NCBI RefSeq assembly: GCF_000009625.1
Contig: NC_002678.2
Coordinates: forward strand, 2,046,001 to 2,110,000
Length of the DNA: 64,000 nt
Reading direction: 5' to 3'
Source of the DNA: Mesorhizobium japonicum MAFF 303099
GTDB taxonomy: Bacteria; Pseudomonadota; Alphaproteobacteria; Rhizobiales; Rhizobiaceae
A program made the position numbers and the translations under genes. The notes under the pieces were generated by a model. It worked only from the letters and a program-made list of their open reading frames with translations. It was not told where the DNA came from and searched no databases. Shown here piece after piece: positions 9,658 to 32,430 of this stretch (position 1 is the first letter of the stretch; every line of letters starts with the position of its first letter).

Positions 9658-9910
9658 TCGCACGGACATGTCCACGCTTGGCCGGTCCTGCCATGCGTGG
9701 CCAGACGCATACCATGGCCGGATTGTCCCAACGTCTGCTCGGCGGCCTTGGAGCGAATGTCCGCGGCTCTGGCCCATCGCGACATACTGCGCGACCGCCC
9801 GAAGTCGTCGCTATAGGGGCAGAGCAGACATTTGCTTTGGTCGCATCACGCCGCCGGGTTTATGGGTACACGGCCTAGGTGGCCGCCGGAGTAGAATTAT
9901 TGAGAAGGTC
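9658..9910. other. Intergenic region, no gene seen
   Basis: Convergent gap between the SDR and GST genes. I see no credible coding frame or terminator. The last ~23 bp resemble one end of the palindromic repeat at 32291-32430. Confidence 0.5.
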
Positions 9911-9913
9911 TCA
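9891..9913. repeat. Half copy of the stop-codon-associated palindromic repeat
   Basis: The string GAGTAGAATTATT followed by GAAGGTC matches the right end of the element at 32291-32430 (GAGTAGAATTATT then AAAGGTC). In both places the match runs into the stop codon of a minus-strand gene: TGA of the GST gene here, TAG of greA there. The opposite arm is not recognisable. Confidence 0.5.
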
Positions 9914-10519
9914 ACCCACCCACTCGATCGGCACATGCCCCGGATCCGCCTCGACGCGGCCAAGCCAGGCCACGACGGCCGGATAGGCGTCGAGCTGGAA
10001 GCCGCCTTGCTCGGCCGTATGCGTGTAGGCATAGAGCGCGATGTCGGCGACGCTGAAGGCGTTCCCGGCGAAGAAGGCGTTGTTCTCCAGATATCTGTTC
10101 ATCACGCCGAGCGCCTTGTGGCCGCGCTCCAGCGTCATCGCCAGCCGTTCGGGCGTCGCATCCCTGGCGCGTTCGGGGAAGGTCAGCAGCGCCTTGCGCA
10201 CGGCGATATAAGGCTCGTGGCTGTACTGCTCGAAGAACAGCCATTGATAGGCAAGCCCGCGCTCATATTTGTCCGCCGGCAGGAAGCGTGTGCCTTCGGC
10301 GAGATAGAGCAGGATGGCGTTGGATTCGGCCAGCCGGCGGCCGTCGTCGAGTTCGAGCAGCGGCACCATGGCGTTCGGGTTCTTGGCGACGAAGTCGGCC
10401 TTGCGCGTCTCGCCTGTATGCGAACTCACCTCGATCGTGGTGAAGGCCAGGCCAAGCTTGGCCATCAGCAGGCGCGGCTTGTAGCAATTGCCGCTGTCGA
10501 TCATGCTGTAGAGTATCAT
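9911..10519 (-). CDS. Glutathione S-transferase
   Basis: 202 residues with the two GST domains: an N-terminal thioredoxin-like part containing the cis-proline and glutathione-contact region (NAMVPLLEL, then LAESNAILLYLAEG) and a C-terminal all-helical part with FSVADIALYAY, the N-capping motif of GSTs. MILYSMIDSGNCYKPR at the N-terminus carries the candidate catalytic Ser/Cys region. It probably conjugates or reduces electrophiles with glutathione in the cytoplasm. GGGGGA lies upstream of the ATG. The stop codon falls at the end of a partial repeat element. Confidence 0.92.
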   Translation of the reverse strand: MILYSMIDSGNCYKPRLLMAKLGLAFTTIEVSSHTGETRKADFVAKNPNAMVPLLELDDGRRLAESNAILLYLAEGTRFLPADKYERGLAYQWLFFEQYSHEPYIAVRKALLTFPERARDATPERLAMTLERGHKALGVMNRYLENNAFFAGNAFSVADIALYAYTHTAEQGGFQLDAYPAVVAWLGRVEADPGHVPIEWVG

Positions 10520-10633
10520 GGACGGTCCCCCGGTGCTTCCTTGAGGCGATTATCGCAGCGGACCTGCCTTCAACCAATGATTTGTTTTGGCGAGACCATC
10601 AGCGGCGCTGATAAGTGAAAGCGCTCGCTCAAC

Positions 10634-10687
10634 GGCATGTCGAGATTCAGGTCAGGCCGGCATCACCTGAATATCGGCATGCCCTAG
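10634..10687. repeat. Short RIME-like palindrome providing the stop codon of the EAL gene
   Basis: Arms GGCATGTCGAGATTCAGGT (10634-10652) and its inverted partner (about 10666-10684) share 17 of 19 positions. The element ends in CTAG at 10684-10687, and the TAG read on the minus strand is the stop codon of the EAL gene 10684-11532. The same core (ATTCAGGT-x-AGGCC) recurs in the larger element at 21919-22064. Confidence 0.65.
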
Positions 10688-11532
10688 CCGAACAGCGGCA
10701 CGACATTGTTTTCCCTGCCCAGCAGCGCATCGACTGACAGCGGCTCTTCGTCGAAGATGGTGCCGGCCAGCGCCGGGCGGGCGAGAAGATAGCCCTGCAG
10801 CAGGTCGACGCCGCCGTCGAGCGCGACGCGCAGATGGACGGGCTGCTCGATGCCTTCGACCAGCACCCTGGCGCCGCGGTCGTGCAGGCTGGAGACCAGC
10901 GGGCGGAAGAAGCGTTCGGCGGGGGCGTGGCGGCAGAACTCCGCGAACCAGCCGCCATCGATCTTGACGATGTCGGGCTGAACCAGGCTCACCCGCTCCT
11001 CGGTCGAATGGCCGGTGCCGAAATCGTCGATGGCGATGCGGATGCCGTCGCGCCGCATTTCGCGCACCAGCCGCGCCAGAAGCGCGTCGTCCGCCGCCTG
11101 TTCGGTGATTTCGCAGACCAGCATGCCCGGAGCGAGGCCAAGCTCGCCGAGATGCCGGCTCATCAGCCGGATTTCGGCAAGCGCCCGCCCCGGATGGTCG
11201 TTGACCATCGGGTTGTAGTTGAAGAACAGATCGAGCCCGTCGACGCCGATATTGTGGAAATTCCTGAGATGCAGCACCCGGCACATGGTCTCGACAAACA
11301 GCCGGTCCGCCGCGGCAACGCTTTCGAAGAATGCCCGCGCCGACCCTGCCCTGCCGGCGCGGTGCGGCTCGATCAGGCCCTCGACCGCCACCGCGTGCAG
11401 CGAACGCCCAAGCGGCGCGAAGATCGGCTGGTAGGCGCTGCGCAGCCGGAACTCGCCAAAGACACCGTATTCGATGCCGATCTCGTCGGCGAAGATCGCG
11501 TCGCCGACAGTGCGCCGCCGCTCGAGCCTCAT
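10684..11532 (-). CDS. EAL-domain c-di-GMP phosphodiesterase (second of a coupled pair)
   Basis: 282 residues, essentially one EAL domain without GGDEF, membrane segment or sensor. Active-site positions look intact: EGL in AVEGLIEP (the EAL motif), the Asn in LFFNYNP, Glu in CEITEQ, the Asp pair in IDDFGTGHS, Lys in IVKIDGG, Glu in LVEGIEQP and Gln in LLQGYLL. It should hydrolyse c-di-GMP to pGpG. The ATG overlaps the stop of the upstream EAL gene by four bases, so production is coupled. The stop codon is supplied by a palindromic repeat. Confidence 0.88.
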   Translation of the reverse strand: MRLERRRTVGDAIFADEIGIEYGVFGEFRLRSAYQPIFAPLGRSLHAVAVEGLIEPHRAGRAGSARAFFESVAAADRLFVETMCRVLHLRNFHNIGVDGLDLFFNYNPMVNDHPGRALAEIRLMSRHLGELGLAPGMLVCEITEQAADDALLARLVREMRRDGIRIAIDDFGTGHSTEERVSLVQPDIVKIDGGWFAEFCRHAPAERFFRPLVSSLHDRGARVLVEGIEQPVHLRVALDGGVDLLQGYLLARPALAGTIFDEEPLSVDALLGRENNVVPLFG

Positions 11533-12422
11533 GGCGCGACCCTGCGCCCGAAGGCTTTTGCCGGCCGCGCCGTACGCGGAGCGGCGGCGGGGGCAGTGGA
11601 CCCATCGCTTGCGGCGGCAACCGGGTCCGGAGTTTTCCCGAAAACACGGAAACTCGTCGGCGCCAGCTCCGGCCGCGCCAGCACGAAACCCTGGACCATC
11701 GAAGCGCCGGACTTTTCGGCGAGCTCCAGTTGCCACCCTTCCTCGATGCCCTCGAACACTGTGCGGATGCCTTGTTCCTCGAAGCTCTTCACCATCGTCG
11801 TCAGCAGCGCGAAGCCGGCGCCGGATTCCATCAGCTGCGTGATCCAGGCGGCGTCGAACTTGACGATGTCGGGCCGCAATTCCTTGATGCGGTTGATGTC
11901 GGAATCGTCGGCGCCATAGTCATCGACGGCGATGCGAAAGCCGTTGCCCCTGAGCGCGGCGACGAAACTGTGCAAGGTCTCCTGTGATGCCGATCTCTGC
12001 TCGGTCACCTCGCACACGACACGGCCCGGATCGATGCCGGCCTCGTGCAGCACCAGCCGCATTTCGCGCAAGGCATTGTCGGCGATCGACCGCTCGGTGA
12101 ACACCGACGGGTCGAAATTGACGAAGATCGACGCCTCCTGCGGCAGGCAGGCGCCGGCATTGAGCAGATGCAATGTCCTGGTCAGCGCCTCGACATGCAG
12201 GCGGTCGGCGGCCGGACAGGTCGAGAAGAAGGCCATCGGCGATTGCGGCTCGCCGTCGCGAAATGGCCGGATCAGCCCTTCGAAGGCGGCCACCGACAGT
12301 TTGCCTTCCTTGAAGGCGAAAATCGGCTGGAAGGCGCTCTGCAGCGTGTAGATGCCCCAGACACCTGACGAGGTGCCGTCATCATGACGGATGATATGGG
12401 CAAGCCCGATGCTGCGTGACAA
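11529..12422 (-). CDS. EAL-domain c-di-GMP phosphodiesterase (first of a coupled pair)
   Basis: About 297 residues: one EAL domain plus an Ala/Pro-rich C-terminal tail. The catalytic set is recognisable: EGL in AFEGLIRP, Asn in IFVNFDP, Glu in CEVTEQ, Asp-Asp in VDDYGADDS, Lys in IVKFDAA, Glu in FEGIEE and Gln in MVQGFVL. The DDFG loop reads DDYG, a mild deviation. The start is uncertain because only TTG codons are available: 12420-12422 has GAGGGA at good spacing, 12471-12473 does not. It is coupled by ATGA to the next EAL gene and similar to it, so a tandem duplication is likely. Confidence 0.82.
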   Translation of the reverse strand: MSRSIGLAHIIRHDDGTSSGVWGIYTLQSAFQPIFAFKEGKLSVAAFEGLIRPFRDGEPQSPMAFFSTCPAADRLHVEALTRTLHLLNAGACLPQEASIFVNFDPSVFTERSIADNALREMRLVLHEAGIDPGRVVCEVTEQRSASQETLHSFVAALRGNGFRIAVDDYGADDSDINRIKELRPDIVKFDAAWITQLMESGAGFALLTTMVKSFEEQGIRTVFEGIEEGWQLELAEKSGASMVQGFVLARPELAPTSFRVFGKTPDPVAAASDGSTAPAAAPRTARPAKAFGRRVAP

Positions 12423-12567
12423 GGGTCCCTCGCTCCGCGAAATGGCGGAATGGATTGCGATCCTGCCACTCAAGCCCTTACCGCTCGTTAATGAATTTTT
12501 TGTTGCCGCTCACAGGCTGCAATCACGGCTCGTTGACGCCTGGATCAGCCGACAATGCTTGCACTGA

Positions 12568-13845
<1,278 letters not shown>

Positions 13846-13869
13846 CCGGATCGATCTGACGACAACAGA

Positions 13870-13899
13870 AACCCGGCGCAGTCATCGCCGGGTTTTTTG
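13870..13899 (+). terminator. Rho-independent terminator after aatA
   Basis: Stem AACCCGGCG, 7-base loop, stem CGCCGGGTT followed by a run of T. It is 25 bp after the aatA stop and may also serve the convergent MFS gene, since A residues precede the stem. Confidence 0.88.
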
Positions 13900-13915
13900 T
13901 TGGAGGCGGGGCACC

Positions 13916-15433
13916 TTACGCCTGCTGCCTTGCTTGCCTGGCCGAACGCGCCTCGGCAGGCGCCAGGACCATGATCAGCAGAGTGGCGGTGAGGAACGCG
14001 GCAATCGCCGCCGTCAGCATGGCGGCGTGGAAGCCGCCGGCATAGGCGGTGGCGAACAGCCGATGCACGCCATCCTCGCCGATTGCCGCGTCGGTTGCGA
14101 AATCATGCCGTGATATGGCGGCACGAGCCACCGCTTCGGCATTGGCGACACCGGCATCGCGGAGATATCCGGTCAAGAGGCTCGTCGCCCGCATGCTCAT
14201 CAGCGCGCCAAGCAGCGCGATGCCGATGGCCAGCCCGCTCTGGCGGGTGGCGTTGATGACGGCCGACACCATACCGGAGCGCTCGCGTGGCGCGTAGGAC
14301 ATGGCAGCGGCACTGCCGGTCGGGATCGCCAGCGAATTGCCGAGACCGTTGATGGTGAACAGGACGCAGAGCAGCGCGTATGGCGTCGACGGCCCGGCCC
14401 AGCACATGCCGAGCATCGAAAGCCCGATCAGCACATAGCCCGCCGTCATCAAAAGCGAATGCCCATAGCGGGCGCTCAGTCGGCCGATCCAGGGCGACAC
14501 GACAATCTGGACAAGGAAGGCCGGCGCCATGCGCAGGCCGGTCTGCGTCGGCGACCAGCCCTGCACCTGCTGCAGGAACATCGAGAAGAAGAACACGCAG
14601 CTATAGGAGGTGAAGCCGAGCGCGAACGAGGCGACGTTGGCGACGGCAAAGCGCACGTCGCGGAACAGGCCGAGCGGCAGCATGGGCCGTGGCGTGCGCG
14701 CCTCGAAGCCAAGGAAGACCGCCAGGCCGACGACACCGACAATGATGGCCACGATGGTCCTGGGATCGCCCCAGCCGCTCTCGCCGGCCGAGATCAGGCC
14801 GAAGGTCAGCGCGCCGAGCCACAGGATCGAGAGCGCCAGGCCGACAAGGTCGAGATGGGCATGTTCGGGATGCGACGTCTCCTCGATCGAAACAGCCCCC
14901 AGCACAATGGTGAAAAGGCCGAGCGGCAGATTGATCAGGAAGATGCTCTGCCAGCCGACCGTCTGCACCAGAATGCCGCCCAGCACCGGGCCGACGACCA
15001 GCGAAACGGCGGCGAACGCGGCCCAGCCGCCGATGACGCCGGCCCGCTCGCGCGGATCGGGGAAAGCCTGCGTCAGGATCGACAGCGCGCCTGGAATGAG
15101 CAGCGAGCCGGCAATGCCTTGCACCACACGACCGGCGAGCAGCGCCGGCAAATTGGGCGCGACGGCACAGATCAGCGAACCGGCAACGAAGATGCCGACG
15201 CCGGCAAGCCAGGAGCGCTTGCGGCCATAGCGGTCGCCGATCAGCCCCGACGACAGCATGAAGGCCGACAGGCACAGCGTGTAGGCATCGACCACCCATT
15301 GCAGTCCACCGAAATCGGTGTGCAGCGCCTGCTGTATGGTCGGCAGCGCGACATTGACGATGCTGACGTCGAGCAAAGCGACGAAGGTGCCGAGATAGAC
15401 GGCGGCGACGAGCGGCAGGCGGTTCTTCGGCAT
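13916..15433 (-). CDS. MFS multidrug efflux transporter (DHA2, 14-TM type)
   Basis: 505 residues, the length of 14-helix drug:H+ antiporters. Motif A (GLIGDRYGRKRSWLAG) lies between helices 2 and 3, and the N-terminal helix carries LDVSIVNVALPTIQQAL, the DHA2 motif D1 that marks EmrB/QacA/LfrA-type exporters. Motif C-like G-P-V-L-G-G is in helix 5. It is an inner-membrane protein. The divergent TetR gene and the palindromic operator at 15471-15487 indicate substrate-induced expression. There is no adaptor gene beside it, so it probably exports to the periplasm. The substrate is unknown. Confidence 0.92.
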   Translation of the reverse strand: MPKNRLPLVAAVYLGTFVALLDVSIVNVALPTIQQALHTDFGGLQWVVDAYTLCLSAFMLSSGLIGDRYGRKRSWLAGVGIFVAGSLICAVAPNLPALLAGRVVQGIAGSLLIPGALSILTQAFPDPRERAGVIGGWAAFAAVSLVVGPVLGGILVQTVGWQSIFLINLPLGLFTIVLGAVSIEETSHPEHAHLDLVGLALSILWLGALTFGLISAGESGWGDPRTIVAIIVGVVGLAVFLGFEARTPRPMLPLGLFRDVRFAVANVASFALGFTSYSCVFFFSMFLQQVQGWSPTQTGLRMAPAFLVQIVVSPWIGRLSARYGHSLLMTAGYVLIGLSMLGMCWAGPSTPYALLCVLFTINGLGNSLAIPTGSAAAMSYAPRERSGMVSAVINATRQSGLAIGIALLGALMSMRATSLLTGYLRDAGVANAEAVARAAISRHDFATDAAIGEDGVHRLFATAYAGGFHAAMLTAAIAAFLTATLLIMVLAPAEARSARQARQQA

Positions 15434-15470
15434 GGTCTATCCCAACATGAAACGCGCAGCCATCTATGCC

Positions 15471-15487
15471 ACTGACCGACGGTCAGT
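15471..15487. promoter_or_regulatory. Palindromic TetR-type operator
   Basis: ACTGACCGACGGTCAGT is a 17-bp palindrome (one central asymmetry) 38 bp from the MFS start codon and about 65 bp before the TetR start. TetR proteins of efflux systems commonly bind such TGACC-N3-GGTCA sites. It probably represses both divergent genes. Confidence 0.75.
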
Positions 15488-15551
15488 CAATATAGATAAG
15501 CCACTTTGGAATCATTATAAAAAGCTTGTCTCGACCGTTAGAAGCAGGTTA

Positions 15552-16211
15552 ATGAAAATCGATAAGCCAGTGCTGCGGAAAGACCCGAACGGCGAGCGGA
15601 ACCCAATGCCTGTGATTGCCAGGAAGGCACTGAAACCCCGCACCAAGCCGGCGGAGGTGCGCCGTGACGATATCTTGCGGGCCGCCACGTCGCTGTTCGT
15701 TGCCAAGGGCGTCGGCACCACGACGATAGACGAGATCGCCACGCGGGCCGAAGTCGCCAAAGGCACCTTCTATCTCTACTTCACCTCCAAGGAGGATGTC
15801 GTTGCCGCCCTGCGCGAGCGGTTCGTGGCGGGATTTCGCGCCCGCATCCTGAGTGCCATCGAGGCCTGCCCGCCCGATGACTGGACCGGACGCCTGAAGA
15901 GTTTCGTCGGCGCCGGCATCGCGGCCTATCTCGACGATCATCAGCTGCACGACGTCGTCTTCCACGACCATCGCCCCGACCAGCGGCGGATGAAAGGCGA
16001 CAATCCGTTGCTCGGCGATCTCTCCGCCCTGCTGGCGGCCGGCACCAAAGCCGGCGCCTGGTCGGTCGATGATCCGGACCTTGCCGCGATCGTCCTGTTC
16101 AACGGGCTGCACGGCGCGGTCGATCATGCCATCGAGTGCGGCGTGCGCGACGGCAGCGAACTCGCGGCAAACCTTTCCGCGCTGTTCCTGAGGATGGTGC
16201 GACCCAAATAG
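15552..16211 (+). CDS. TetR/AcrR family transcriptional regulator
   Basis: 219 residues from the chosen ATG. The N-terminal DNA-binding domain is typical: ILRAATSLFVAKGVGTTTID, then EIATRAEVAKGTFYLYFTSK, about residues 40-85. The C-terminal ligand-binding domain is unspecific. An alternative start at 15606 (MPVIARK) would remove 18 basic residues; the upstream frame to 15432 runs over the operator and is unlikely to be translated. Divergent from the DHA2 exporter gene, so it most likely represses that gene and itself through 15471-15487. Confidence 0.88.
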   Translation: MKIDKPVLRKDPNGERNPMPVIARKALKPRTKPAEVRRDDILRAATSLFVAKGVGTTTIDEIATRAEVAKGTFYLYFTSKEDVVAALRERFVAGFRARILSAIEACPPDDWTGRLKSFVGAGIAAYLDDHQLHDVVFHDHRPDQRRMKGDNPLLGDLSALLAAGTKAGAWSVDDPDLAAIVLFNGLHGAVDHAIECGVRDGSELAANLSALFLRMVRPK

Positions 16212-16237
16212 GCCTGTCGTCCGCGGCTGGTCAGGTC

Positions 16238-16633
16238 TTAGCTGCCATATTGCTCGCCGGAAACCGCTTCCAGCCAGTCGGCATGGACGCCGTCGAGCGC
16301 TTCCTGCATGGCGATATGCGTCATCGCCGTCTTCGGCCCGGCACCATGCCAGTGCTTTTCGCCGGGCGCGAACCAGATCACGTCGCCTGCCCTGATCTCC
16401 TGGACCGGGCCGCCCCATGTCTGGGCAAGCCCGGCGCCCGAGGTGACATAGAGCGTCTGGCCGAGCGGATGTGTGTGCCAGTGGGTGCGCGCGCCCGGTT
16501 CGAAGCTGACCAGTGTCGCTCTCAGCCGCGCCGGCGCCCCCGCCTCGATGATCGGCGTCTGCAGAACCCGGCCGGTGAAGTATTTTTCCGGCGCTATGAT
16601 GGTCGGCACGCTGCCGCAAGCAATGATCTTCAT
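16238..16633 (-). CDS. Cupin domain protein (mandelonitrile lyase/CMD-like)
   Basis: 131 residues with a single cupin. The metal-binding histidines are in ARTHWHTHPLGQTLYVTSG, and the second motif is GDVIWFAPGEKHWHGAGP. The K-Y-F-T-G-R-V-L-Q-T-P-I start and the W-H-G-A-G-P ending resemble cupins annotated near carboxymuconolactone decarboxylases or as (R)-mandelonitrile lyase-like, where a metal sits in the barrel. The actual substrate is unknown. It is convergent with the TetR gene and about 250 bp from the divergent GGDEF-EAL gene. Confidence 0.85.
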   Translation of the reverse strand: MKIIACGSVPTIIAPEKYFTGRVLQTPIIEAGAPARLRATLVSFEPGARTHWHTHPLGQTLYVTSGAGLAQTWGGPVQEIRAGDVIWFAPGEKHWHGAGPKTAMTHIAMQEALDGVHADWLEAVSGEQYGS

Positions 16634-16880
16634 CGTCTGATCCTGAAACTGGTGGTGAAGCGACCGGCGGCAAACGCCGCTGCTCGTCGAGGCAAAAGCA
16701 TTGTCGGCCGATATCGCCCGAGGCGCAACCGGCTGTTTCGGCTGCCTGGAGGAAGACGCGGTTTTCTCTCCTTAACCATGAACCTTTCGCGCATCACAGT
16801 ACGGGGCGAAACAACGGCGAATTCAATGTCTTCTTAACGGCTCGCCACTAGCCGTGAGCCTGCATTGCGAGGGCCGTCGG

Positions 16881-18410
16881 ATGAGCATACTGGCGACGAT
16901 CAAGGACCATAGCGGCCGGATCTATCGCGGCATCCAGGCCCTGCTTGTGCTGAGCATCGGCGCGGCCGCACTCGGCGCTTTCGACATCTCGCGCAGCCTG
17001 CCCTCAGGCGGCGCCCTGGCCGTCTCGATCCTGGCCACCGGCCTTGCCTTGCTGGCACTGATGTACATGCGCAGCAGCGTCGTCCATCGCTTGCGCTCGG
17101 CGGAAGCGGCGGAAGCAGAAAAACATCATTTCCTGACCAGGGACGCCATGACCGGGGCGATGACCAGGCGCTACTTCCTCGAAGCCCTGCGCGACAGCCT
17201 GGGCACCATGCGCGACCGGCGCGAGGCGACTTTGCTGTTGATCGATGTCGATCACTTCAAGCAGCTCAACGACACGTTCGGCCACCAGTTCGGCGACCTC
17301 GCCCTGGTGCACCTGGTCAAGACGTCGGAACGCGTCTTTGCCGACGGCATGGTCGGGCGGCTGGGCGGCGACGAATTCGGTGTCATCATTCCGCATGGTG
17401 ACCTCGCCGCCATCAACAAGGACATCAGGCAATTGCTCGATACGATGCGGGCCGGCAAATCGCATGAAGGCAAGACCATTCCGCTCTCCATCTCGGTCGG
17501 CGTGGCGCTGGCGCCGGCTCATGCCTCCAACACGGCGGAACTGATGCTGGTTGCCGACCTGGCGCTCTATGAAAGCAAGGCGGCCGGCCGTGGCCGTGTC
17601 ACCGTATTCGATGAGGAGATGCTGTCCGACAAGCGCTACCGGCGCCTGGTCGAACGGGAGTTGCGCGCAGCGGTCTATCTGGGCGAGCTCGAACTGCACT
17701 ACCAGCCGATCGTCAATCCGGACGGGTCCGCCTATGCTCTCGAAGGCCTGATCCGCTGGCGTCATCCGGTTCGCGGGCTGATCTCGCCGGCCGAGTTCAT
17801 CCCCATCGCCGAACGCTCGACCCTGATCGACATGCTCGGCGAATGGGTGTTCAAGCGGGCTTGCGCCGATGTCGGCCATTTCCCCGGGCGCCGCATCTCC
17901 ATCAATGTTTCGGGCGAGCAGCTGAAGCGCGACGAGATCGTCACCATGTGCGACCGCGTGCTGAGGGAAACCGGTCGCTCGGCGACGCAGTTCATCATCG
18001 AGATCACCGAGACCGTGGCGACCGCCGCCACGCCCGAAACCCTGCGGCGCCTCGAAGCATTGCGCGGCCTCGGCTTCCACATCGCGCTCGACGATTTCGG
18101 CACCGGCCATTGCGGCTTCAACTATCTGAAAACCCTGCCCATCGACAGCATCAAGATCGACCGATCCTACATCCGCAGCCTCGCCCATGATCAGGTGGCG
18201 CAGATCTTCGTTTCGGCGCTGGCGCAGATCGCGCGCATCCAGGACGTCACCATCGTGGCGGAAGGCGTGGAGACGCAGGAAGAGTTCGCGCTGGCCAGGG
18301 CCGCCGGCTGCAACCGTTTCCAGGGCTACTTCTTCGGCAGGCCGGCGCCGCGCGACAAGGTGGCGCCCTTGCGCTCCATCGATGCCGAACCCTTGGCCCA
18401 GAGCGCCTGA
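16881..18410 (+). CDS. Membrane GGDEF-EAL protein (c-di-GMP turnover)
   Basis: 509 residues. Two hydrophobic segments (about 17-35 and 44-63) anchor the N-terminus. A GGDEF domain follows with an exact GGDEF motif at 162-166, then an EAL domain starting near 255 with EGL at 288-290 and intact Asn, Glu (EITE), Asp-Asp (LDDFGTGH), Lys (KIDRS) and Glu (AEGVET) positions. Both cyclase and phosphodiesterase activity are therefore possible. The usual RxxD inhibitory site before GGDEF is not evident. The ATG at 16881 has GAGG upstream; a GTG at 16854 would add nine residues. It has no sensory PAS or GAF domain. Confidence 0.9.
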   Translation: MSILATIKDHSGRIYRGIQALLVLSIGAAALGAFDISRSLPSGGALAVSILATGLALLALMYMRSSVVHRLRSAEAAEAEKHHFLTRDAMTGAMTRRYFLEALRDSLGTMRDRREATLLLIDVDHFKQLNDTFGHQFGDLALVHLVKTSERVFADGMVGRLGGDEFGVIIPHGDLAAINKDIRQLLDTMRAGKSHEGKTIPLSISVGVALAPAHASNTAELMLVADLALYESKAAGRGRVTVFDEEMLSDKRYRRLVERELRAAVYLGELELHYQPIVNPDGSAYALEGLIRWRHPVRGLISPAEFIPIAERSTLIDMLGEWVFKRACADVGHFPGRRISINVSGEQLKRDEIVTMCDRVLRETGRSATQFIIEITETVATAATPETLRRLEALRGLGFHIALDDFGTGHCGFNYLKTLPIDSIKIDRSYIRSLAHDQVAQIFVSALAQIARIQDVTIVAEGVETQEEFALARAAGCNRFQGYFFGRPAPRDKVAPLRSIDAEPLAQSA

Positions 18411-21013: not shown

Positions 21014-21130
21014 CAAAAAAGCCGGATCAGTGAAGATCCGGCTGAGTTTGATTGGAAGTGCCTGTTAAGGCTAACCTCCAGAGGGGAACACTCGAGGGCG
21101 CTAATGGGAGGAGAACGCGCCCAGGAGATG
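21014..21130 (-). ncRNA. Candidate trans-acting sRNA with anti-Shine-Dalgarno loop
   Basis: Downstream of a good minus-strand promoter (21136-21165), the RNA would first form stem GGGCGC/GCGCCC (21117-21122 with 21096-21101) whose 15-base loop contains TTCTCCTCCC, complementary to ribosome binding sites. A second C-rich segment (CCCCTCTGGAGG) follows, and it ends in terminator stem AGCCGGATC/GATCCGGCT plus TTTTTTGTTG (21014-21043). Length (~116 nt) and layout resemble the rhizobial alpha-r14 type sRNAs with conserved CU-rich anti-SD loops. Family membership is an inference; the promoter, loop and terminator are visible. Confidence 0.62.
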
Positions 21131-21918: not shown

Positions 21919-22064
21919 GAGGATATATCGAGATTCAGGTCAGGCCGAGCCGAGAACGAGGGTTTCCGTGAACCGGAACGGAGCGGACTTTCCGTCCGTG
22001 AGTACCGGAAGCGCAGGAAACTCACGTTCGCAGGCCGGCCTCACCTGAATATCGACATATCCTA
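21919..22064. repeat. ~146-bp RIME-like palindromic element ending in the lsrB stop codon
   Basis: The left end AGGATATATCGAGATTCAGG and the inverted right end (TAGGATATGTCGATATTCAG read on minus) pair, with internal arms GAACG-x-G-x-GTTTCC and inverse, and a central GTACCGGAAGCGCAGGAAA segment shared with the element at 32291-32430. The right end is CTAG; on the minus strand this TAG is the stop codon of the LysR gene 22062-22958. Confidence 0.75.
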
Positions 22065-22958: not shown

Positions 22959-23048
22959 GATTCCCCTCGTTCTGTTTGGCGTCTGAATGAAAAATCAGGC
23001 TTTTACACGACGTTTCTAAGCCGTTTTTTTAACAGTTTAAAGCGGCTC

Positions 23049-24270: not shown

Positions 24271-24750
24271 ATGCCCCTGAAAGCCGACCTCGACGCCATC
24301 GACTGGAAGATCCTGCGCGAGCTGCAAGCGGATGGGCGCATGACCAATGTCGAGCTGTCGAACCGCGTCGGCATTTCGGCCCCGCCCTGCCTGCGCAGGG
24401 TCAAGCGGCTGGAGGAGGCCGGCATCATCCGCGGCTACCGCGCGCTGCTCAATGCCCCGGCGCTCGGCCTCGATGTCGTCGCCTTCTGCTTGGTCGGTCT
24501 GCATCACCAGGCCGATGCCGAACTGCGCACCTTCGCCGAGCGCACGCGCGGCTGGCCGATCGTGCGCGATGCCTGGATGGTCTCGGGCGAATCCGATTTC
24601 CTGCTGCACTGCCTGGCAAGCGACCTCGGCGCCTTCCAGACCTTCGTCATCGAGGAACTGACCTCGACGCCGAATGTCGACACCGTGCGCACCGCGCTCA
24701 CCATCCGCCGCGTCAAGGATGAAGGCCTGGTTTCTTTCGAACGATCCTGA
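24271..24750 (+). CDS. Lrp/AsnC family transcriptional regulator
   Basis: 159 residues. N-terminal HTH (DAIDWKILRELQADGRMTNV, then ELSNRVGISAPPCLRRVKRL) and C-terminal RAM ligand-binding domain with VSGESDFLLHC. The size and spacing are typical. A TTG seven codons upstream is open, but ATG MPLKAD is the natural start. Divergent from trxB with ~250 bp between; it may respond to an amino acid. The target is unknown, possibly itself. Confidence 0.9.
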   Translation: MPLKADLDAIDWKILRELQADGRMTNVELSNRVGISAPPCLRRVKRLEEAGIIRGYRALLNAPALGLDVVAFCLVGLHHQADAELRTFAERTRGWPIVRDAWMVSGESDFLLHCLASDLGAFQTFVIEELTSTPNVDTVRTALTIRRVKDEGLVSFERS

Positions 24751-24985
24751 GGTCGCGCGAGCGCGTGAACGCTGGCGAATTCCTGGCCTTCGCCACACCG
24801 GCGCCGCGTTGGTATTCGACAGACGCTGATGTACAAGGCTGGACGGCTCTGCCGGACTTCGTCGCTTGATTGGTTTCTCAAGCGAATCCGGGAAAAGTGT
24901 GTAACGGTTTTCCGCGCGGGATTGCTTGGGTACAGATGGCGAAAGCAGCGTTGCTCTGGGGGCGGCCCGCCATGGGAAGGGGACC
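24751..24985. other. Intergenic region between Lrp and glycosyltransferase genes
   Basis: No gene seen. It should contain the glycosyltransferase promoter. No clear terminator hairpin with a T run. Confidence 0.4.
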
Positions 24986-25780
24986 ATGACTCGATTTGCA
25001 AGCCCGGTCTCGGCGCTTATCATCTGCGTGAACGAGGCCGATATGATCGGCCCGTGCCTGGAAAGCATCGACTTCTGCGCCGAGATCATCATCGTCGATT
25101 CCGGTTCGACGGATGGCACGATCGAATGCGTGAAAAGCTACATCGCCAAGGGCTACCCGATAAGGCTCTTGCACAATGACTGGCCGGGGTTTCCCCGTCA
25201 GCGGCAATTCTCGCTCGACCACGCAACCCAGCCCTGGTGCCTCTCGATCGACCCGGACGAGCGCGTCGACGACCAGTTGCGGCAGTCGATCGTGGCCATC
25301 ACGCAGGCCGCCGACGACAAGATCAGCGGCTGGTACATCCGCCGCCGCGATTGGCTGAAAGGCTACGGCTATGCGCACCGCTGGGTGCTGCACAACAGGC
25401 TGATGCGGCTTTTCCGCCGGGAAGGTGCCACCATCGATCTCACCGCGCGGGTGCACGAAGCCTTCCAGGTGCCGGGCGAGACCGGTACGGTCGAAGACGG
25501 TGTGCTGCTGCATCGTCGTGAAATATCGGTCGAGGAGGATCTTGCCCGGGCCAACGCCTATTCCAGCCTCAAGGCCGTCACGCTGGTCGAGAAGGGCAAG
25601 AAGCCCGGCCTGGTGCGGCTGGTGCTGTCGCCGTTGGGCAACTTCCTGAAATTCTACCTGGCCAAGCGCTATTTCCTGTGCGGCCGGCACGGCTTCGTCT
25701 ACTCGATGTCGGTGATGATCTATTCCTTCGCCACGGAGGCAAAGCTCTACGAAGCCTCGGAACGCGACGATCCCGTGTGA
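24986..25780 (+). CDS. Family 2 glycosyltransferase, LPS core type (WaaE/LgtF-like)
   Basis: 264 residues with a GT-A fold: N-terminal LIICVNEADMIGPCLESI, the nucleotide-sugar acidic motif VDSGSTDGT and the DxD-like SIDPDERVDD. The block WYIRRRDWLKG-Y-G-Y and R-L-M-R-L-F-R-R-E-G followed by V-H-E matches the WaaE/KdtX/LgtF branch, which adds a glucose or similar residue to inner-core heptose. AAGGGGA precedes the ATG. Ends 15 bp before the convergent gmhB. The neighbourhood of heptose genes supports an LPS-core role; the donor and acceptor are not known. Confidence 0.85.
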   Translation: MTRFASPVSALIICVNEADMIGPCLESIDFCAEIIIVDSGSTDGTIECVKSYIAKGYPIRLLHNDWPGFPRQRQFSLDHATQPWCLSIDPDERVDDQLRQSIVAITQAADDKISGWYIRRRDWLKGYGYAHRWVLHNRLMRLFRREGATIDLTARVHEAFQVPGETGTVEDGVLLHRREISVEEDLARANAYSSLKAVTLVEKGKKPGLVRLVLSPLGNFLKFYLAKRYFLCGRHGFVYSMSVMIYSFATEAKLYEASERDDPV

Positions 25781-25795
25781 GCGGTCGGGCCTGGA

Positions 25796-26449
25796 TCAGG
25801 ACCTGTTGTCCCGGCCGAGCGTTTCAATGGCTGCGAGCAGGTCACCGAGCTCGCTGCTGTCCCGCAGGGGCCTGATGGCGAAGCCGGGCTGGACCGCCGC
25901 CTCGCCGTCGACCAGCCAGCCCTGTGCGAGACCGGCGCGCTTTCCCGCCTGCATGTCGGCAAGCTTGTCGCCGACGATCAGCGAGCGCTGGAGATCGAGA
26001 GCCAGGCGTTTGCCCGCCTCGACCAGCATGCCCGGATTGGGCTTGCGCATCGGATGATCCGGGATGGCGAGTGGCCCGACACCGGCCTCGTGATAGGCGC
26101 AGGCAAGCACCATGTCGACGAACACGCCCTCCTCGCGCAACAGCTCGAGCACGCGGCCATTCACCGCCGCAAAGGCGCTCCAGCCGAAATAACCGCGCGC
26201 GATGCCGGACTGGTTGGTGACCACGACAACCGGGATTCCCGCCCGGTTGGCGGTTGCGATCGCCGGTAGCATCTGCGGCCTGAGCACAATTTCGGCCGGG
26301 TCGCTGGGATAGTCGGTATCGACGTTGATGGTGCCGTCGCGGTCGAGGAACAGCGCCGGCAGGTGCGGCGGGAAAACCCGGCCGCCGATCCGCTCGATCC
26401 ACACGCCCGGCTCGGTCAGCGGGTGCGGCGTGCCCGTCTTGTCAGCCAT
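25796..26449 (-). CDS. gmhB: D-glycero-D-manno-heptose-1,7-bisphosphate 7-phosphatase
   Basis: 217 residues, HAD superfamily. Motif I is FLDRDGTIN (nucleophile and acid Asp), motif II VTNQSG, motif III Lys in RKPNPGML, motif IV VGDKLADM. It removes the 7-phosphate of heptose bisphosphate in ADP-heptose synthesis. The zinc-binding loop of E. coli GmhB (C-x-H ... C-x-C) is eroded: CAYHEAG keeps one Cys, but the C-x-C before RKP reads H-P-M. Its start overlaps the end of gmhA by eight bases. A ~30-residue N-terminal extension precedes the first strand. Confidence 0.88.
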   Translation of the reverse strand: MADKTGTPHPLTEPGVWIERIGGRVFPPHLPALFLDRDGTINVDTDYPSDPAEIVLRPQMLPAIATANRAGIPVVVVTNQSGIARGYFGWSAFAAVNGRVLELLREEGVFVDMVLACAYHEAGVGPLAIPDHPMRKPNPGMLVEAGKRLALDLQRSLIVGDKLADMQAGKRAGLAQGWLVDGEAAVQPGFAIRPLRDSSELGDLLAAIETLGRDNRS

Positions 26450-27014
26450 TCGACAGGCGCGCTTCGACCACTTCGCAGAGATGATGGTAGAGGCACAGAT
26501 GCCCCTGCTGGATGATCGGCGTCGAGGTCGATGGCACGTTGAGCAGGATGTCGCACAGCGGCTTGAGTTTGCCGCCGGTGTCGCCGGTCAGGCCGATCAC
26601 CGTCATGTCCATCATCCGCGCCTGTTCGGCGGCGGCGAGGATGCTCGGCGAATTGCCGCTGGTCGAGATCGCCAGGAGCACGCCTCCGGCCGTGCCATGC
26701 GCCTCGACCTGGCGCGAGAACACCGTGTCGAAGCCGTAATCATTGCCCCAGGCCGTCAGCACCGCTGCATTGGCCGGCAGCGCGATGACATTGTAGGCCT
26801 TGCGCTCCTTGAGGAAGCGGCCGACCAATTCGCCGGCTATATGGATGGCGTCGCTCGCCGAACCGCCATTGCCGGCGATCAGCAAGGCCTTACCCGACGA
26901 GAGCGCCGTCACCACGGCGCTCGCCGCCCGCTCCATCTCGCCGGTCAGGTCACGCTCGACCATCGCCGTGATCGCGGCCGCCGAGCGGACCAGATAGTCG
27001 TTCAGTTCAGACAT
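26442..27014 (-). CDS. gmhA: Sedoheptulose-7-phosphate isomerase
   Basis: 190 residues, SIS domain. It converts sedoheptulose 7-phosphate to D-glycero-D-manno-heptose 7-phosphate, the first step of ADP-heptose synthesis, as a tetramer. Visible are the phosphate-binding GNGGSASDAIHIAGELVGRF, the second loop STSGNSPSIL, and the catalytic His region IIQQGHLCLYHHLCE. GAGG precedes the ATG. It lies seven bases after hldE and overlaps gmhB, a three-gene operon. Confidence 0.93.
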   Translation of the reverse strand: MSELNDYLVRSAAAITAMVERDLTGEMERAASAVVTALSSGKALLIAGNGGSASDAIHIAGELVGRFLKERKAYNVIALPANAAVLTAWGNDYGFDTVFSRQVEAHGTAGGVLLAISTSGNSPSILAAAEQARMMDMTVIGLTGDTGGKLKPLCDILLNVPSTSTPIIQQGHLCLYHHLCEVVEARLSNG

Positions 27015-27021
27015 CAAAACC

Positions 27022-28512
27022 TCAGCTTGTAGAGCCGGCGCGCAATTTGCCGATTGTGCCGGTGGTGCTCTTGCCGGCGACGAGATCGACCAGCACGACG
27101 CGCCCACCGGCCTTCTGCACGACGTCGGCGCCGACCACGGTGTCGATCGTATAATCCGCGCCCTTGACCAGGATATCGGGCAGCAGCGCCTCGATCAGCG
27201 CCAGCGGCGTATCCTCCTCGAAGACAACGACGGCATCGACCGAGGCAAGCGCGGCAAGCACGCAGGCACGATCATGCTGGTCGTTGACCGGGCGGCCCGG
27301 GCCTTTCAGCCGCCGCACCGAGGCGTCGCTGTTGAGGCCGAGCACCAGCCGGTCGCACTGGCTGCGCGCCGCGTGCAGCAGGCTGACATGGCCGGCATGC
27401 AATATGTCGAAGCAGCCATTGGTGAAGCCGACGCTGAGGCCTTCTTCCTTCCAGGCCGCCACCATGCGCGCGGCCGACGAGGCATCGAGGATGGCGTCCT
27501 TGTGGGCGGTCGGTCCATGCGAGCGAAACAGCGCGCCGGTAAGCTCCTCGACCGTCAGCCGCGCGGTGCCGCGTTTTCCCACCACGACGCCGCCGGCGGC
27601 ATTGGCGATCGAGGCCGCCGCGACGGGATCGGCCCCCGAGGCTAGCGCCAGCGCGAACGTCGCGATGACCGTGTCGCCGGCGCCAGAGACGTCGAACACT
27701 TCGCGCGCCTGGGTGGCGATGTGGCGCGCCTCGTCAGGGCCGACCACGCTCATGCCCTTTTCGCTGCGCGTGGCGACGACGAAGTCGAAACCATGCGCCG
27801 AAATCAGTTCGCGCGCCGCGGCCACGATCTCGTCATCGGCGAACACGGCATGGCCGACGGCCTCGCCAAGTTCCTTGCGGTTGGGGGTGATGGCGGTCGC
27901 GCCGGCATAGCGCGCATAATCGCGGCCCTTGGGATCGACCAGCACCGGCTTGCCGGCCTCGCGGCAGATGGCGATGAGTTCGGCGGCAACGCCGTCGAGC
28001 AGGATGCCCTTGCCGTAGTCGGACAGGATGACGATCTCGGCCCCCGCCAGTGCGGCACGGAAATGCCGGATCAGCCCTGCCCGCTCCGTCTCGTCCAATG
28101 GTTTGATCTCTTCCTCGTCGAAGCGCAACACCTGCTGATTGAGCGCGCTGAAGCGGCTCTTCGACGACGTCATGCGGCCGCGCTGCTGCGAAAGCCCCGC
28201 TGTCTCGGCTCCAAGCTCGGCGAGCATGCGCACCAGGCTGTCGCCGGCGGTGTCCGTGCCGATCACCGAAACCGGGATGGCCCGCGCGCCAAGCGAGACG
28301 ATGTTGGCCACGACATTGCCGGCGCCGCCCATGGCCGAGGTTTCGCCGCGCCCATGCAGCACAGGGATCGGCGCCTCAGGCGAAATCCGCTCGATGACGC
28401 CGTTGACGAAGCGGTCGAGGATAAGGTCGCCGACCACCAGCACGGTGACGCCGCCAAAGCGGGCAATGGCGCGGTGCAGGGGTTCGGGAGAAGGCGGATT
28501 GTGCTTGATCAT
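27022..28512 (-). CDS. hldE: Bifunctional heptose-7-phosphate kinase / heptose-1-phosphate adenylyltransferase
   Basis: 496 residues, full length for a fused HldE. Residues ~1-330 are a PfkB-type kinase (GGAGNVVANI, D-P-K-G-R-D-Y, anion hole DVSGAGDTVIA). Residues ~350-496 are a nucleotidylyltransferase (FTNGCFDILHAGHV with HxGH-like motif, L-N-S-D-A-S-V-R-R-L-K-G). It makes heptose 1,7-bisphosphate and later ADP-D-glycero-D-manno-heptose. First gene of hldE-gmhA-gmhB on the minus strand. Confidence 0.95.
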   Translation of the reverse strand: MIKHNPPSPEPLHRAIARFGGVTVLVVGDLILDRFVNGVIERISPEAPIPVLHGRGETSAMGGAGNVVANIVSLGARAIPVSVIGTDTAGDSLVRMLAELGAETAGLSQQRGRMTSSKSRFSALNQQVLRFDEEEIKPLDETERAGLIRHFRAALAGAEIVILSDYGKGILLDGVAAELIAICREAGKPVLVDPKGRDYARYAGATAITPNRKELGEAVGHAVFADDEIVAAARELISAHGFDFVVATRSEKGMSVVGPDEARHIATQAREVFDVSGAGDTVIATFALALASGADPVAAASIANAAGGVVVGKRGTARLTVEELTGALFRSHGPTAHKDAILDASSAARMVAAWKEEGLSVGFTNGCFDILHAGHVSLLHAARSQCDRLVLGLNSDASVRRLKGPGRPVNDQHDRACVLAALASVDAVVVFEEDTPLALIEALLPDILVKGADYTIDTVVGADVVQKAGGRVVLVDLVAGKSTTGTIGKLRAGSTS

Positions 28513-28626
28513 ATCACTGGCAACGCGCGGGGAAAAACAGTCGCTGAAACATATAGGGTGTCGGCTGGCGGACGTTCATGCCTGCCGATATACCGCAATT
28601 CGAACCGGCGCAACGGCCGCGCCGCG

Positions 28627-29259
28627 TCAGCTCTTCTGCAGGGCAACGTGGACGCCGAGCCCGACCAGCACCGCCCCGCCTGCCCGCTGCATCACCCGCT
28701 GCGCCCGGCTCGAACGCCGCAGCCGGCTGATCACGAGGCCGGCGAGGAACACGCAGACAATGTCGGCCGAGGAGAACATCAGATTGACGATGGTGCCCAG
28801 CACCACGAATTGCAGCCACACCGGCAAGGCCGCCGAGGCGTCGATAAACTGCGGCAGGAACGCCATGAAGAAGATCGCGGTTTTCGGATTGAGCACTTCG
28901 ACGGTGATGCTCTCGAAAAAGGCGCGGCGGGCCGATTTCCGTTCAATCGCAGGCAGCGCCACGTCGCCCTCGACGCGCTTGCGAAACAGCGAGACACCGA
29001 GCCAGATCAGATAGAGCGCACCGATCAGCTTGACCGCCATGTAGAGCGGCGGCACGGCATGGAACAACACCGACAGGCCGGCGGCGGCGGCAAAGACATG
29101 CACATAACCGCCGAGATGGATGCCAAGTGCTGCCGTCAGTCCCGACCACCGCCCACGCGCCAGCGTCTGCGCGGCGGCATAGAGCATGGCCGGACCGGGG
29201 ATATAGGCGAAGATCGCCGTGGTGGCGAAAAACGCAATGAGCAGTTCGGTCGACGGCAT
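28627..29259 (-). CDS. LysE family translocator (RhtB-like)
   Basis: 210 residues with six predicted membrane helices and the family N-terminal signature YIPGPAMLYAAAQTLARGR-x-S-G. The internal F-F-E-S-I-T-V-E-V-L-N-P-K-T-A-I-F-F segment is typical of RhtB/LysE amino-acid or homoserine-lactone exporters. AAGGGA lies upstream of the ATG. It separates the two heptose operons and is divergent from hldD (132 bp); no functional tie to LPS is evident. Confidence 0.9.
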   Translation of the reverse strand: MPSTELLIAFFATTAIFAYIPGPAMLYAAAQTLARGRWSGLTAALGIHLGGYVHVFAAAAGLSVLFHAVPPLYMAVKLIGALYLIWLGVSLFRKRVEGDVALPAIERKSARRAFFESITVEVLNPKTAIFFMAFLPQFIDASAALPVWLQFVVLGTIVNLMFSSADIVCVFLAGLVISRLRRSSRAQRVMQRAGGAVLVGLGVHVALQKS

Positions 29260-29391
29260 TTTCTGTCCCTTATGATCGATGCTGACTGAGCGGAAGCTTT
29301 GCGGCGCCGCTGTGACGCCTGCACCTGCTTTGTCGACAGCCCGGCTGGCCTCCCTTATAAGGACCGGAATCGCAAGCAACCAGAGGCCTTC

Positions 29392-30342
29392 ATGATCATC
29401 GTCACGGGCGGCGCCGGCATGATCGGCTCCAACATCGTCGCCGCGCTCAATGCCGAGGGCCATGACGACATCCTGGTCGTCGATGATCTCACCGACGGCC
29501 ACAAGATCGCCAATCTCGCCGATCTCAGCATTGCCGACTATCTCGACAAGGACGATTTTCTAACCCGCATCGAGGCCGGGGCGCTCGGCCGCATCGAGGC
29601 CGTCTTCCACCAGGGCGCCTGCTCAACCACCACCGAGTGGAACGGCAAGTTCATGATGGAGGTGAATTTTGCTTATTCAAAGCGGCTGCTGCATGCCTGC
29701 CAGGCGCCGCGCGTGCCCTTCCTCTACGCCTCCTCGGCTTCTGTCTATGGCGGCGGTTCGGAGTTTCGCGAGGAGCCGGCGCTGGAGCGGCCGCTCAATG
29801 TCTATGCCTATTCGAAGAAACTGTTCGACGACTATGTCAGGCGCACCGTCTTCGACACCGATCACTCGCAGGTCGCCGGCCTGCGCTATTTCAACGTCTA
29901 CGGCCCGCGAGAGGCCCACAAGGGCGCCATGGCCTCGGTCGCCTTCCATCTGTTCAACCAGGTCGAGCGTGGCGAGAATCCGAGACTGTTCGGCGCCTAT
30001 GACGGTTTCGGCCCCGGCGAACAGAGCCGCGACTTCATCCATGTCGGCGACGTCGCCGACGTCAATCTGTGGCTCTGGAAGCGAGGATCGAGCGGCATCT
30101 TCAACTGCGGCACCGGCCGCGCCCAGCCGTTCCGCGCCATCGCCGAAACCGTCATCGACACGCTGGGCAAGGGCGAGATCGAGTTCATCCCCTTCCCCGA
30201 CCACCTCAAGGGCAGCTACCAGAGCTTCACGCAAGCTGATATGTCCCGTTTGCGCGCGGCCGGGTATAATGGCCAGTTCCGGACAGTGGAAACCGGTGTC
30301 AGAGACTATGTCGAATGGCTGAAAGCCCAACGATCCTCGTGA
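29392..30342 (+). CDS. hldD: ADP-glyceromanno-heptose 6-epimerase
   Basis: 316 residues, extended SDR. The Rossmann motif is GGAGMIG (6-12), and the catalytic Tyr-x3-Lys is in [15 protein letters not shown]. The conserved [14 protein letters not shown] and [19 protein letters not shown] blocks are diagnostic for HldD. It converts ADP-D,D-heptose to ADP-L,D-heptose, the last step of precursor synthesis. The reading frame overlaps waaF by 28 bases, so hldD-waaF-waaC form a tightly packed operon. Confidence 0.95.
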
Positions 30343-31322
30343 TCGGCCCACGCTGGGTGGGCGACATGGTGATGGCGCAGTGCCTGTTCTCGGCGCTGAA
30401 GGAACTCTATCCCAACGCCGCCATCGACGTGCTGGCACCGGCCTGGGCGGCGCCGCTGGTCAAGCGTATGCCCGAGATCCGCCAGCAGATCGACTTGCCG
30501 CTGAAGCCCGGCGCGCTCGAATTCACCATTCGCCGCCGCTTCGGCCGTCTGCTGCGCGGCCGCTACGACATGGCCTATGTCCTGCCAGGTAGCTGGAAAT
30601 CGGCGCTGATCCCGTTCTTTGCCCGCATTCCGCGCCGTTTCGGCCATCTGCGCGAGATGCGCTACGGCCTTTTGACCGACATCGTGCCGTTGCCGGACGC
30701 CGTGAAACGGCGCACAGCGCAGGCCTATTTCAGTCTCGCCAAGGGCGGCAGTTTTCGCGCGCCCCATCTGACCGTGGATGCCGGAAACCAGGCCGCCCTG
30801 CTGGACCGTTTCGGGCTGGCGCCGCGGAAATTCGCGGCTCTGATGCCTGGCGCCGAATTCGGTCCGGCCAAGCGCTGGCCGAGCGAAAGCTATGCCGGCC
30901 TTGCCCGCAAGTTCATGGATAAGGGATTGAAGGTCGCCCTGTTCGGTTCGAAGAACGACCGCGATGTCACCGCTGAGATCACGGCCCTTGCCCCCGGCGT
31001 CGTCGACCTAGCCGGCCAGACACGGCTGGAGGACGCCATCGACCTGATAGCGGCGGCAAGGCTGGCGGTCTCCAACGACAGCGGGCTGATGCATGTCGCG
31101 GCGGGCGTCGGTACGCCGATCGTTGCCGTCTACGGCTCGACCTCGCCCGAAAACACGCCGCCGCTGGCGGAACGGCGCGAGCTGGTCTGGCTGCACCTCT
31201 CCTGCTCGCCCTGCCACCAGAAGGTCTGCCCGCTCGGCCATCTCAACTGCCTGAAGACATTGGAAGTCGGCCAAGTCGCTACAGCGGCGGAGCGACTGCT
31301 GGAACTCCCGGCCACGGCATGA
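30315..31322 (+). CDS. waaF: ADP-heptose:LPS heptosyltransferase II
   Basis: 335 residues, GT9 family. N-terminal [19 protein letters not shown], the central [14 protein letters not shown] block, and the ADP-heptose-binding [28 protein letters not shown] with C-S-P-C at the C-terminus is a known WaaF feature. It adds the second heptose to the inner core at the cytoplasmic face of the inner membrane. It starts inside hldD and overlaps waaC by four bases (ATGA). Confidence 0.93.
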
Positions 31323-32293
31323 AGGTTCTGATCGTCAAGACATCGTCCATGGGCGATGTCATCCACACCTTTCCGGCCGTCGAGGATGCCAGCCTGCACC
31401 GGCCGGACATTTCCTTCGACTGGTGCGTCGAGGAGGCGTTTGCCGGCATTGTCGCCCTGCACCCGGCGATCGCTGGGATTCACACGGTGGCGATCCGGCG
31501 CTGGCGCAAGGCGCTGTTCAACGGCGGAACCTGGCGTGAGGCGGCCGCGCTGCGCCGAACCTTGCGCGAATGCCGCTTCGATCTGGTCATCGACGCACAG
31601 GGTCTGCTGAAATCGGCCCTGGTGGCGCGGCAGGCGCGCGCACCGATCGCCGGCTTCGACCGGTCGAGTGCACGCGAACCCTCTGCGACCCTGTTCTACG
31701 ACGTCACCTACGGCGTGCCGCGCAACCTGCACGCCATCGAGCGGACGCGGCGGCTGTTCGGGCTGGCGCTTGGCTACCAGCCCGATCTGTCGACGCTCGC
31801 TTCAGGCATCGTGCCACCACCCGGTGCTCTCGCCGGCATCACCGGAAAGACCGCCTTCCTGTTGCACGGCACCAGCCGCGAGGACAAGAAATGGCCTGTT
31901 GAAGACTGGATCGGAACCGCCCGCCTGCTGGTCGAGCGCGGCATGACCCCGGTCACCACCTGGTCGAACGAACGTGAGAAGTCTGTTGCCGAAGCCATCG
32001 CCAGGGCCGTGCCGTCCACGGTCGTGGTGCCAAAATCGCCGCTGGCCGACATCGCCGCCATCCTCGGACGCTCGACGCTGGTCATCGGCGCCGACACCGG
32101 CCTGACCCACCTCGCCAGCGCCTTCGGCCTGCCGACGGTTGCTGTATTTTTGGCGACGGAGCCGGGTTTGACCGGCCCGCGCGGGCCGTATGCGTCGACG
32201 CTGCTGGCCGTGCCTGGTGGACGTCTGACGCCGGCTGAGGTCGTGGCGGAGGCGGACAGCCTGCTTAATCTTAAATTGCAGGCGCCGGCTTAG
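31319..32293 (+). CDS. waaC: ADP-heptose:LPS heptosyltransferase I
   Basis: 324 residues, GT9. It begins [20 protein letters not shown], the classical WaaC start, and has LHGTSREDKKWPVEDW and GADTGLTHLASAFGLPTVAV in the donor-binding half. It transfers the first heptose to Kdo of the inner core. Translation is coupled to waaF. The TAG stop codon (32291-32293) is the first triplet of a palindromic repeat, which also ends the convergent greA gene. Confidence 0.93.
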   Translation: MKVLIVKTSSMGDVIHTFPAVEDASLHRPDISFDWCVEEAFAGIVALHPAIAGIHTVAIRRWRKALFNGGTWREAAALRRTLRECRFDLVIDAQGLLKSALVARQARAPIAGFDRSSAREPSATLFYDVTYGVPRNLHAIERTRRLFGLALGYQPDLSTLASGIVPPPGALAGITGKTAFLLHGTSREDKKWPVEDWIGTARLLVERGMTPVTTWSNEREKSVAEAIARAVPSTVVVPKSPLADIAAILGRSTLVIGADTGLTHLASAFGLPTVAVFLATEPGLTGPRGPYASTLLAVPGGRLTPAEVVAEADSLLNLKLQAPA

Positions 32294-32430
32294 GACCTTT
32301 TCAGAATTCGCTCTGGCGAGTCGAATAGCGTGGTTTTCGGGTCGCCCCGCGACGAGCGGAGCGTACTTTAAAGTACGTGAACACCGGAAGCGCAGAAACC
32401 GCGCCAGAGTAGAATTATTAAAAGGTCCTA
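32291..32430. repeat. 140-bp palindromic element supplying stop codons to both waaC and greA
   Basis: The left end TAGGACCTTTT at 32291 and the right end (TAGGACCTTTT read on minus from 32430) are identical over 11 bp, then diverge slightly and pair again through CTCTGGCG. Inside are the perfect palindrome CGTACTTTAAAGTACG and the segment ACACCGGAAGCGCAGAAAC shared with 21919-22064. The left TAG is the waaC stop and the right TAG is the greA stop, so the element exactly fills the convergent gap. It may also act as a bidirectional terminator. Confidence 0.8.

Follow-up and report, generated by a model that had tools for sequence, protein, structure and literature searches.

The chromosome of Mesorhizobium japonicum MAFF 303099 (7,036,071 bp) carries palindromic intergenic repeats that lie, mostly with one particular arm, directly against the stop codons of genes. 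The repeats are described here from a window, that is, the whole stretch of 64,000 nucleotides (nt) analysed (chromosome positions 2,046,001-2,110,000). Element coordinates are window positions unless stated otherwise. The stop-side arm of a repeat is termed the near arm and the opposite one the far arm. In one family of these repeats, family A, the stop codon lay 6 to 8 nt before the conserved near arm in 25 of the 31 copies with a readable near arm. These copies are termed flush; 20 of them share one offset, 4 the next and 1 the third. Random placement in noncoding DNA would give 0.8% for the three offsets together (p about 7e-48 for 25 of 31, the three adjacent offsets having been picked after inspection of the data). 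The reading that we prefer, at roughly even confidence, is that these are old palindromic intergenic repeats, similar to the REP and CIR repeats of other bacteria, that act as stop-proximal mRNA hairpins. Their anatomy is seen directly in the DNA and their function is the proposed part.

Gene ends were counted over 2.68 Mb of the 7.04 Mb chromosome, comprising the window and other stretches that were partly picked for holding copies. Genes were called with a codon-usage caller, which gave 2455 genes (stops: TGA 1488, TAG 598, TAA 369), and the called gene closest to the expected offset was used for each copy. A hidden Markov model (HMM) scan of the same 2.68 Mb returned 50 family-A copies; 19 had no readable near arm and were left out of the flush count. 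Of the near arms that were not flush, three were only a few bases from a stop, one was 120 bp away, and for two the caller gave no neighbouring gene in that orientation. The near arm faced the incoming gene in 45 of the 50 copies. Far arms could be read in 36 copies, and an incoming stop stood at the near-arm offset in 2 of them (chromosome positions 977587 and 5313799). For family B, four of five near ends were flush and the remaining one was 2 nt off; one of four far ends was flush, at the heptosyltransferase gene of the window. A pattern search for family B gave 11 further matches that were judged to be chance and were not counted.

The elements and stop borders of the window are as follows, with gene identities taken from domain matches plus gene calls.

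9880..9910, minus strand: half a family B copy, consisting of the near arm and abutting the GST gene's TGA; it does not fold by itself
9911..9913, minus strand: TGA stop of the GST gene
10637..10683, minus strand: family A short form, outer hairpin only without core, abutting the TAG of the EAL gene; fold -25.7 kcal/mol, z -4.55
10684..10686, minus strand: TAG stop of the EAL-domain gene
21919..22061, minus strand: family A full copy with core, abutting the TAG of the LysR gene (lsrB); fold -77.8 kcal/mol, z -9.23
22062..22064, minus strand: TAG stop of the LysR-family gene, named lsrB in a preliminary description of this DNA
32291..32293, plus strand: TAG that ends the heptosyltransferase (glycosyltransferase 9) gene (31319-32293), at the far border of the family B copy
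32294..32427, minus strand: family B copy with GACC...GGTC arms and the core common to both families; fold -51.4 kcal/mol, z -4.54
32428..32430, minus strand: TAG stop of greA, near border of the family B copy

The preliminary description had placed repeat borders at the stops of the EAL, lsrB, greA and GST genes, and all four were found where it put them. The heptosyltransferase stop is a fifth border that it did not contain; here the 134 bp element spans the entire gap between two convergent stops. It had also counted three full copies and one half copy of a single family. The half copy is as described, but the window holds two families that differ in their outer arms (A at 10637-10683 and 21919-22061; B at 32294-32427 and 9880-9910), and 10637-10683 is a short form without core. 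The short form is about 47 bp long and the full form about 143 bp. An inner core is common to the full copies of A and B, and some copies hold a third, nested palindrome inside it. The repeats can be viewed as a putative oriented mosaic: the outer hairpin is of type A or B, the core may or may not be inserted, and the nested palindrome is present in some copies. The copies at 10637-10683, 21919-22061 and 32294-32427 are predicted to fold as RNA with pairing from the first nucleotide 3' of the stop.

A covariance model was built on 23 family-A copies and used to search the genome; of 5393 first-look candidates it scored 150, and weak copies may have escaped it. At least 71 matches were obtained, which correspond to 48 distinct places by best strand (40 plus, 8 minus), all of them chromosomal. 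No family-A match to either of the two smaller replicons was present among the matches listed from this search. In a family-level survey under stricter filters, 17 of 61 genomes gave a match, the window's own genome counted.

The consensus structure comprised 51 pairs, with 95.0% of cells paired and 20 pairs changed on both sides, the structure having been derived from the same alignment. None of 500 shuffles reached either measure, and slid structures gave 30-38% paired. Pairing between near and far flanks was measured in 24 flush copies, using as a control the near flank of one copy against the far flank of another. Pairing exceeded the control at several positions, among them position 9 from the arm (0.71 vs 0.45) and position 10 (0.58 vs 0.35), both of which fall in the stop codon, and equalled it at positions 11 and 12. 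The excess therefore reaches the second stop base counted from the arm and not beyond, so that the palindrome ends inside the stop codon.

Two of the junctions were compared with related sequences. At lsrB, 80 named Mesorhizobium loci were used, and the stop fell at the identical codon in all 80, with or without the element. The suggestion that the elements replace gene 3' ends is contradicted at lsrB by this comparison. The element or a recognisable part of it was present at 28 of the 80 loci. Stops with the element were TGA 16, TAG 8 and TAA 4, and those without were TGA 27, TAG 15 and TAA 10. Presence and absence on the lsrB tree required 20 changes, 12 of which were forced by well-supported branches, and several loci scored as element-free (L263, L273, L276) still hold fragments at the same place. 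The element at lsrB looks like an old one that has decayed many times over, with regain also possible. It is inverted at one locus (L235). In two Mesorhizobium (L294 and L304), a second shared junction upstream of lsrB, at about position 2634-2746 of these loci, holds the same element family. For the EAL gene, 120 homologues were compared. The protein ended at the same residue in 48 of them and the other 72 were longer by 2-7 residues, which makes the EAL protein of the window no unusual truncation. As judged from these sequences, replacement of the 3' end is not favoured here and a small shift of the end is possible.

Copies in four genomes of other genera were examined from the top-scoring matches, 20 in total (G076, 15 of 48 matches; G120, 3 of 11; G092, 1 of 11; G088, 1 of 8). 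In 18 of the 20, taken as a raw count, a coding frame ran into the near arm and ended no more than about 15 nt from it. The arm was missed by the pattern in about half of these copies, for which the model end served as the reference. The linker between stop and arm varied more in length in these genera than in Mesorhizobium.

On the preferred reading, a past process of spread would have set one given arm of the repeats against stop codons, and the copies at the lsrB junction would now be mostly decaying. When transcribed, the hairpin would sit inside the footprint of a ribosome at the stop codon. In Escherichia coli, REPs located no more than 15 nt from a stop are reported to stall ribosomes (PMC5082802, citing Liang 2015). 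The Mesorhizobium hairpins share that distance, which offers a mechanism, although the taxon is another and the likeness is one of position only. Given the hairpin within the ribosome footprint and this analogy, it is proposed that the hairpin most likely slows termination or routes the message to trans-translation, and/or shields the message from 3' exonucleases. A role of the repeats in mRNA fate is a plausible hypothesis. For the insertion step, an orientation-dependent process of single-strand type with a short target (YTRR-like, where Y is a pyrimidine and R a purine) would fit best.

Five points weigh against the reading as stop-proximal mRNA hairpins. Six of the 31 readable near arms are not flush. 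The element is dispensable at lsrB, because 52 of the 80 loci have no recognisable element. The covariation could also come from arm-to-arm correction of palindromes, without selection on RNA. The consensus is predicted to fold better on the strand antisense to the near gene (-71.8 vs -44.7 kcal/mol for the sense strand), and the antisense strand favours G-U (GU:AC 32:17 on shared pairs with a Watson-Crick majority, 12 pairs to 4); these model values do not favour action through the mRNA of the near gene. Finally, no enzyme for the insertion step was found, the Y1 transposase (PF01797) being present in one of five carriers examined.

Orientation along the chromosome bears on how the repeats spread. 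The origin was placed at about 3.5 Mb and the terminus at about 0.3 Mb from GGGNAGGG polarity in the sampled stretches. In the replichore of the window, 34 of 35 covariance matches were oriented as if behind leading-strand genes, which make up 57.5% of called genes there (p 1.2e-7). Two other Mesorhizobium genomes each showed a single dominant strand, counted on the plain sequence (G003, 27 of 28 distinct places by best strand; G021, 11 of 14). A search artefact behind the strand bias was ruled out: a reverse-complement query gave the mirror result, and the HMM scans agreed (36 of 37 in the window's replichore). This bias would be expected from single-strand spread, of an HUH/RAYT or IS200/IS605-like kind, into the lagging-strand template, which would fix the orientation of an element both to the stop and to the fork. 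The absence of an obvious target duplication points the same way: by eye, in the flanks of chromosome copies and the lsrB orthologues, nothing consistent with duplication of a TA or CTAG target was seen. A miniature inverted-repeat transposable element that duplicates TA was considered separately and rejected; the far flank lacked TA in most of 24 flush copies by inspection, and the idea fits a few copies (for example those at chromosome positions 694552, 4127695 and 6017429). In the other replichore, however, 7 of 13 matches had the leading-strand orientation (7:6, also 7 of 13 in the HMM set), which differs from the first replichore (p 8e-4). The dnaA gene lies at 4.48 Mb, away from the inferred origin, so the replication map is an inferred one only. 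PF01797 was not found in carriers G003, G076, G120 and G092, and the four Y1-transposase-like matches in the window's own genome are clustered at G000:C1:5619103-5623326. Single-strand spread is accordingly treated as a possible but somewhat unlikely account. A Bordetella repeat is described as not co-oriented with replication (PMC3110155).

The composition of the junctions bears on a second alternative, in which a transposable palindrome inserts at CTAR or YTAR and only harmless copies at gene ends survive, with no function. Stops at flush junctions were TAG 13, TAA 8 and TGA 4. TAR stops (TAG or TAA) were enriched relative to the genome (21 of 25, p 9e-6), and the preceding base was a pyrimidine in 23 of 25 (C 19, T 4, G 1, A 1; p 6e-5). 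A TAR stop after a pyrimidine is therefore preferred at the junction and is not required. A YTAR stop occurs in 19 of the flush copies; drawing YTAR sites at random inside each copy's own spacer would already place 14.7 of these 19 at the stop, so that part of the docking effect is a choice of short spacers. In element-free spacers, however, YTAR sites coincide with stops in 20% of convergent and 16% of tandem cases, and in convergent spacers an insertion should do no harm at most positions. YTAR targeting plus purifying selection thus predicts about 20% at stops against the 81% observed, and does not reproduce 25 of 31. A survey in which borders fell no closer to stops than short intergenic gaps would give had been named as the result that would count against docking, and this comparison came out the other way. 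Targeting and survival also leave unexplained why one arm adjoins the stop, and the commonest stop at lsrB is TGA. We regard this alternative as unlikely. The earlier suggestion of insertion at stop codons or CTAG sites holds for the tie to stops and fails for CTAG: TAA and TGA occur, and lsrB with the element mostly ends in TGA (16 of 28).

A role as transcription terminators or boundary elements between genes would suit the gene context, in which 22 of the 50 copies have convergent neighbours, 25 tandem and 3 divergent ones, whereas the corresponding gene pairs free of elements number 395, 1574 and 391. An intrinsic terminator consists of a hairpin followed by a run of T, but no run of four T was seen after the far arm by inspection of 24 flush copies, and a terminator does not need to lie flush with a stop. 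This role is doubtful, and quite unlikely in our estimate.

It is very unlikely that the elements are CcrM-linked, with the far-arm GANTC as the functional part and the hairpin bringing a methylation site to gene ends: GANTC occurs in the far arms of all 23 aligned copies and in none of their near arms (30 of 30 and 1 of 30 in a wider set, against an expectation of 6.4% per 45 nt), and CIR repeats are likewise described with GANTC, but the fuzzy anchor used in picking copies contains GATTC, which makes the far-arm count (though not the contrast between arms) partly circular, and the site is lost in lsrB copies L239, L241 and L243. There is a slim chance that a mobile-derived hairpin, combining recognition of stops in one orientation on the lagging-strand template with a CcrM site in its distal arm, became a replication- and methylation-aware 3'-end module of leading-strand genes. 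Identity of the repeats with integron attC sites was considered and dropped.

Known repeats, as described in the sources cited, were compared with the Mesorhizobium elements. GTAG-type REPs lie mostly downstream of coding regions, and their termini often supply TAG stops (PMC3733652). The elements described here resemble them in being palindromic, multicopy and mainly 3' of genes with a stop at the terminus, but a REP unit is 20-40 bp long, compared with about 47-145 bp in Mesorhizobium. The GTAG tag is also missing from the Mesorhizobium repeats (one of 25 flush stops has a G in front of it), and their near and far arms are unlike each other. A Y1 (RAYT) transposase in the genome is a further feature of GTAG REPs; among the five carriers, PF01797 occurs only in that of the window. 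CIR repeats of Caulobacter, Brucella and other alphaproteobacteria are about 110 bp long with a conserved GANTC (PMC2229807; original Chen and Shapiro 2003). The Mesorhizobium repeats are similar in taxon, size and conserved GANTC; they differ in that a single hairpin spans the element from end to end and holds GANTC on the far side of its stem, whereas a CIR is described with two arms and a linker and with GANTC at a terminal loop. Rhizobium-specific intergenic mosaic elements (RIME; Osteras 1995, cited in PMC2573895 and PMC1273637) are alike by description alone, being rhizobial, intergenic, repeated and mosaic by name. The same applies to Bru-RS1 and Bru-RS2 of Brucella, which are related palindromic repeats of 103-106 bp (Halling and Bricker 1994, cited in PMC2267715 and PMC10800456). 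A literature search whose coverage left out most subscription journals returned no title that dealt with the Mesorhizobium repeats or with their placement on stops. REP termini that supply stops and stop-proximal REPs are already known; what the present repeats add is an orientation rule, a stem flush with the stop and a GANTC confined to one arm.

Other features of the window were recorded. At the Rfam gathering score, the sole match in the window was the ar15 small RNA family (RF02345, 43.5 bits; 21015-21129, minus strand), about 0.8 kb from the lsrB element, and none fell on the repeats. Two neighbouring genes of 130 aa contain direct repeats of 300 nt, 83% alike (266-565 and 836-1135), and represent a tandem gene duplication. 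A tandem pair of 55-nt units, 84% alike, occupies 39428-39537. Inverted repeats were found at 2103-2163 and 2224-2284 (61-nt arms, 92% complementary, 60 nt between) and at 1294-1319 and 1570-1595 (26-nt arms, 92% complementary, 250 nt between).

Placement on stops within a base or two, in a single orientation, is unusual for a repeat family. Were it to have a mechanistic cause, the repeats would be expected to insert by a process whose short targets resemble stops. The patchy presence of the element (28 of 80 loci at lsrB) supplies natural pairs of genes with and without it. If the hairpins alter termination or the life of the message, dozens of genes per genome would share one 3'-end module.

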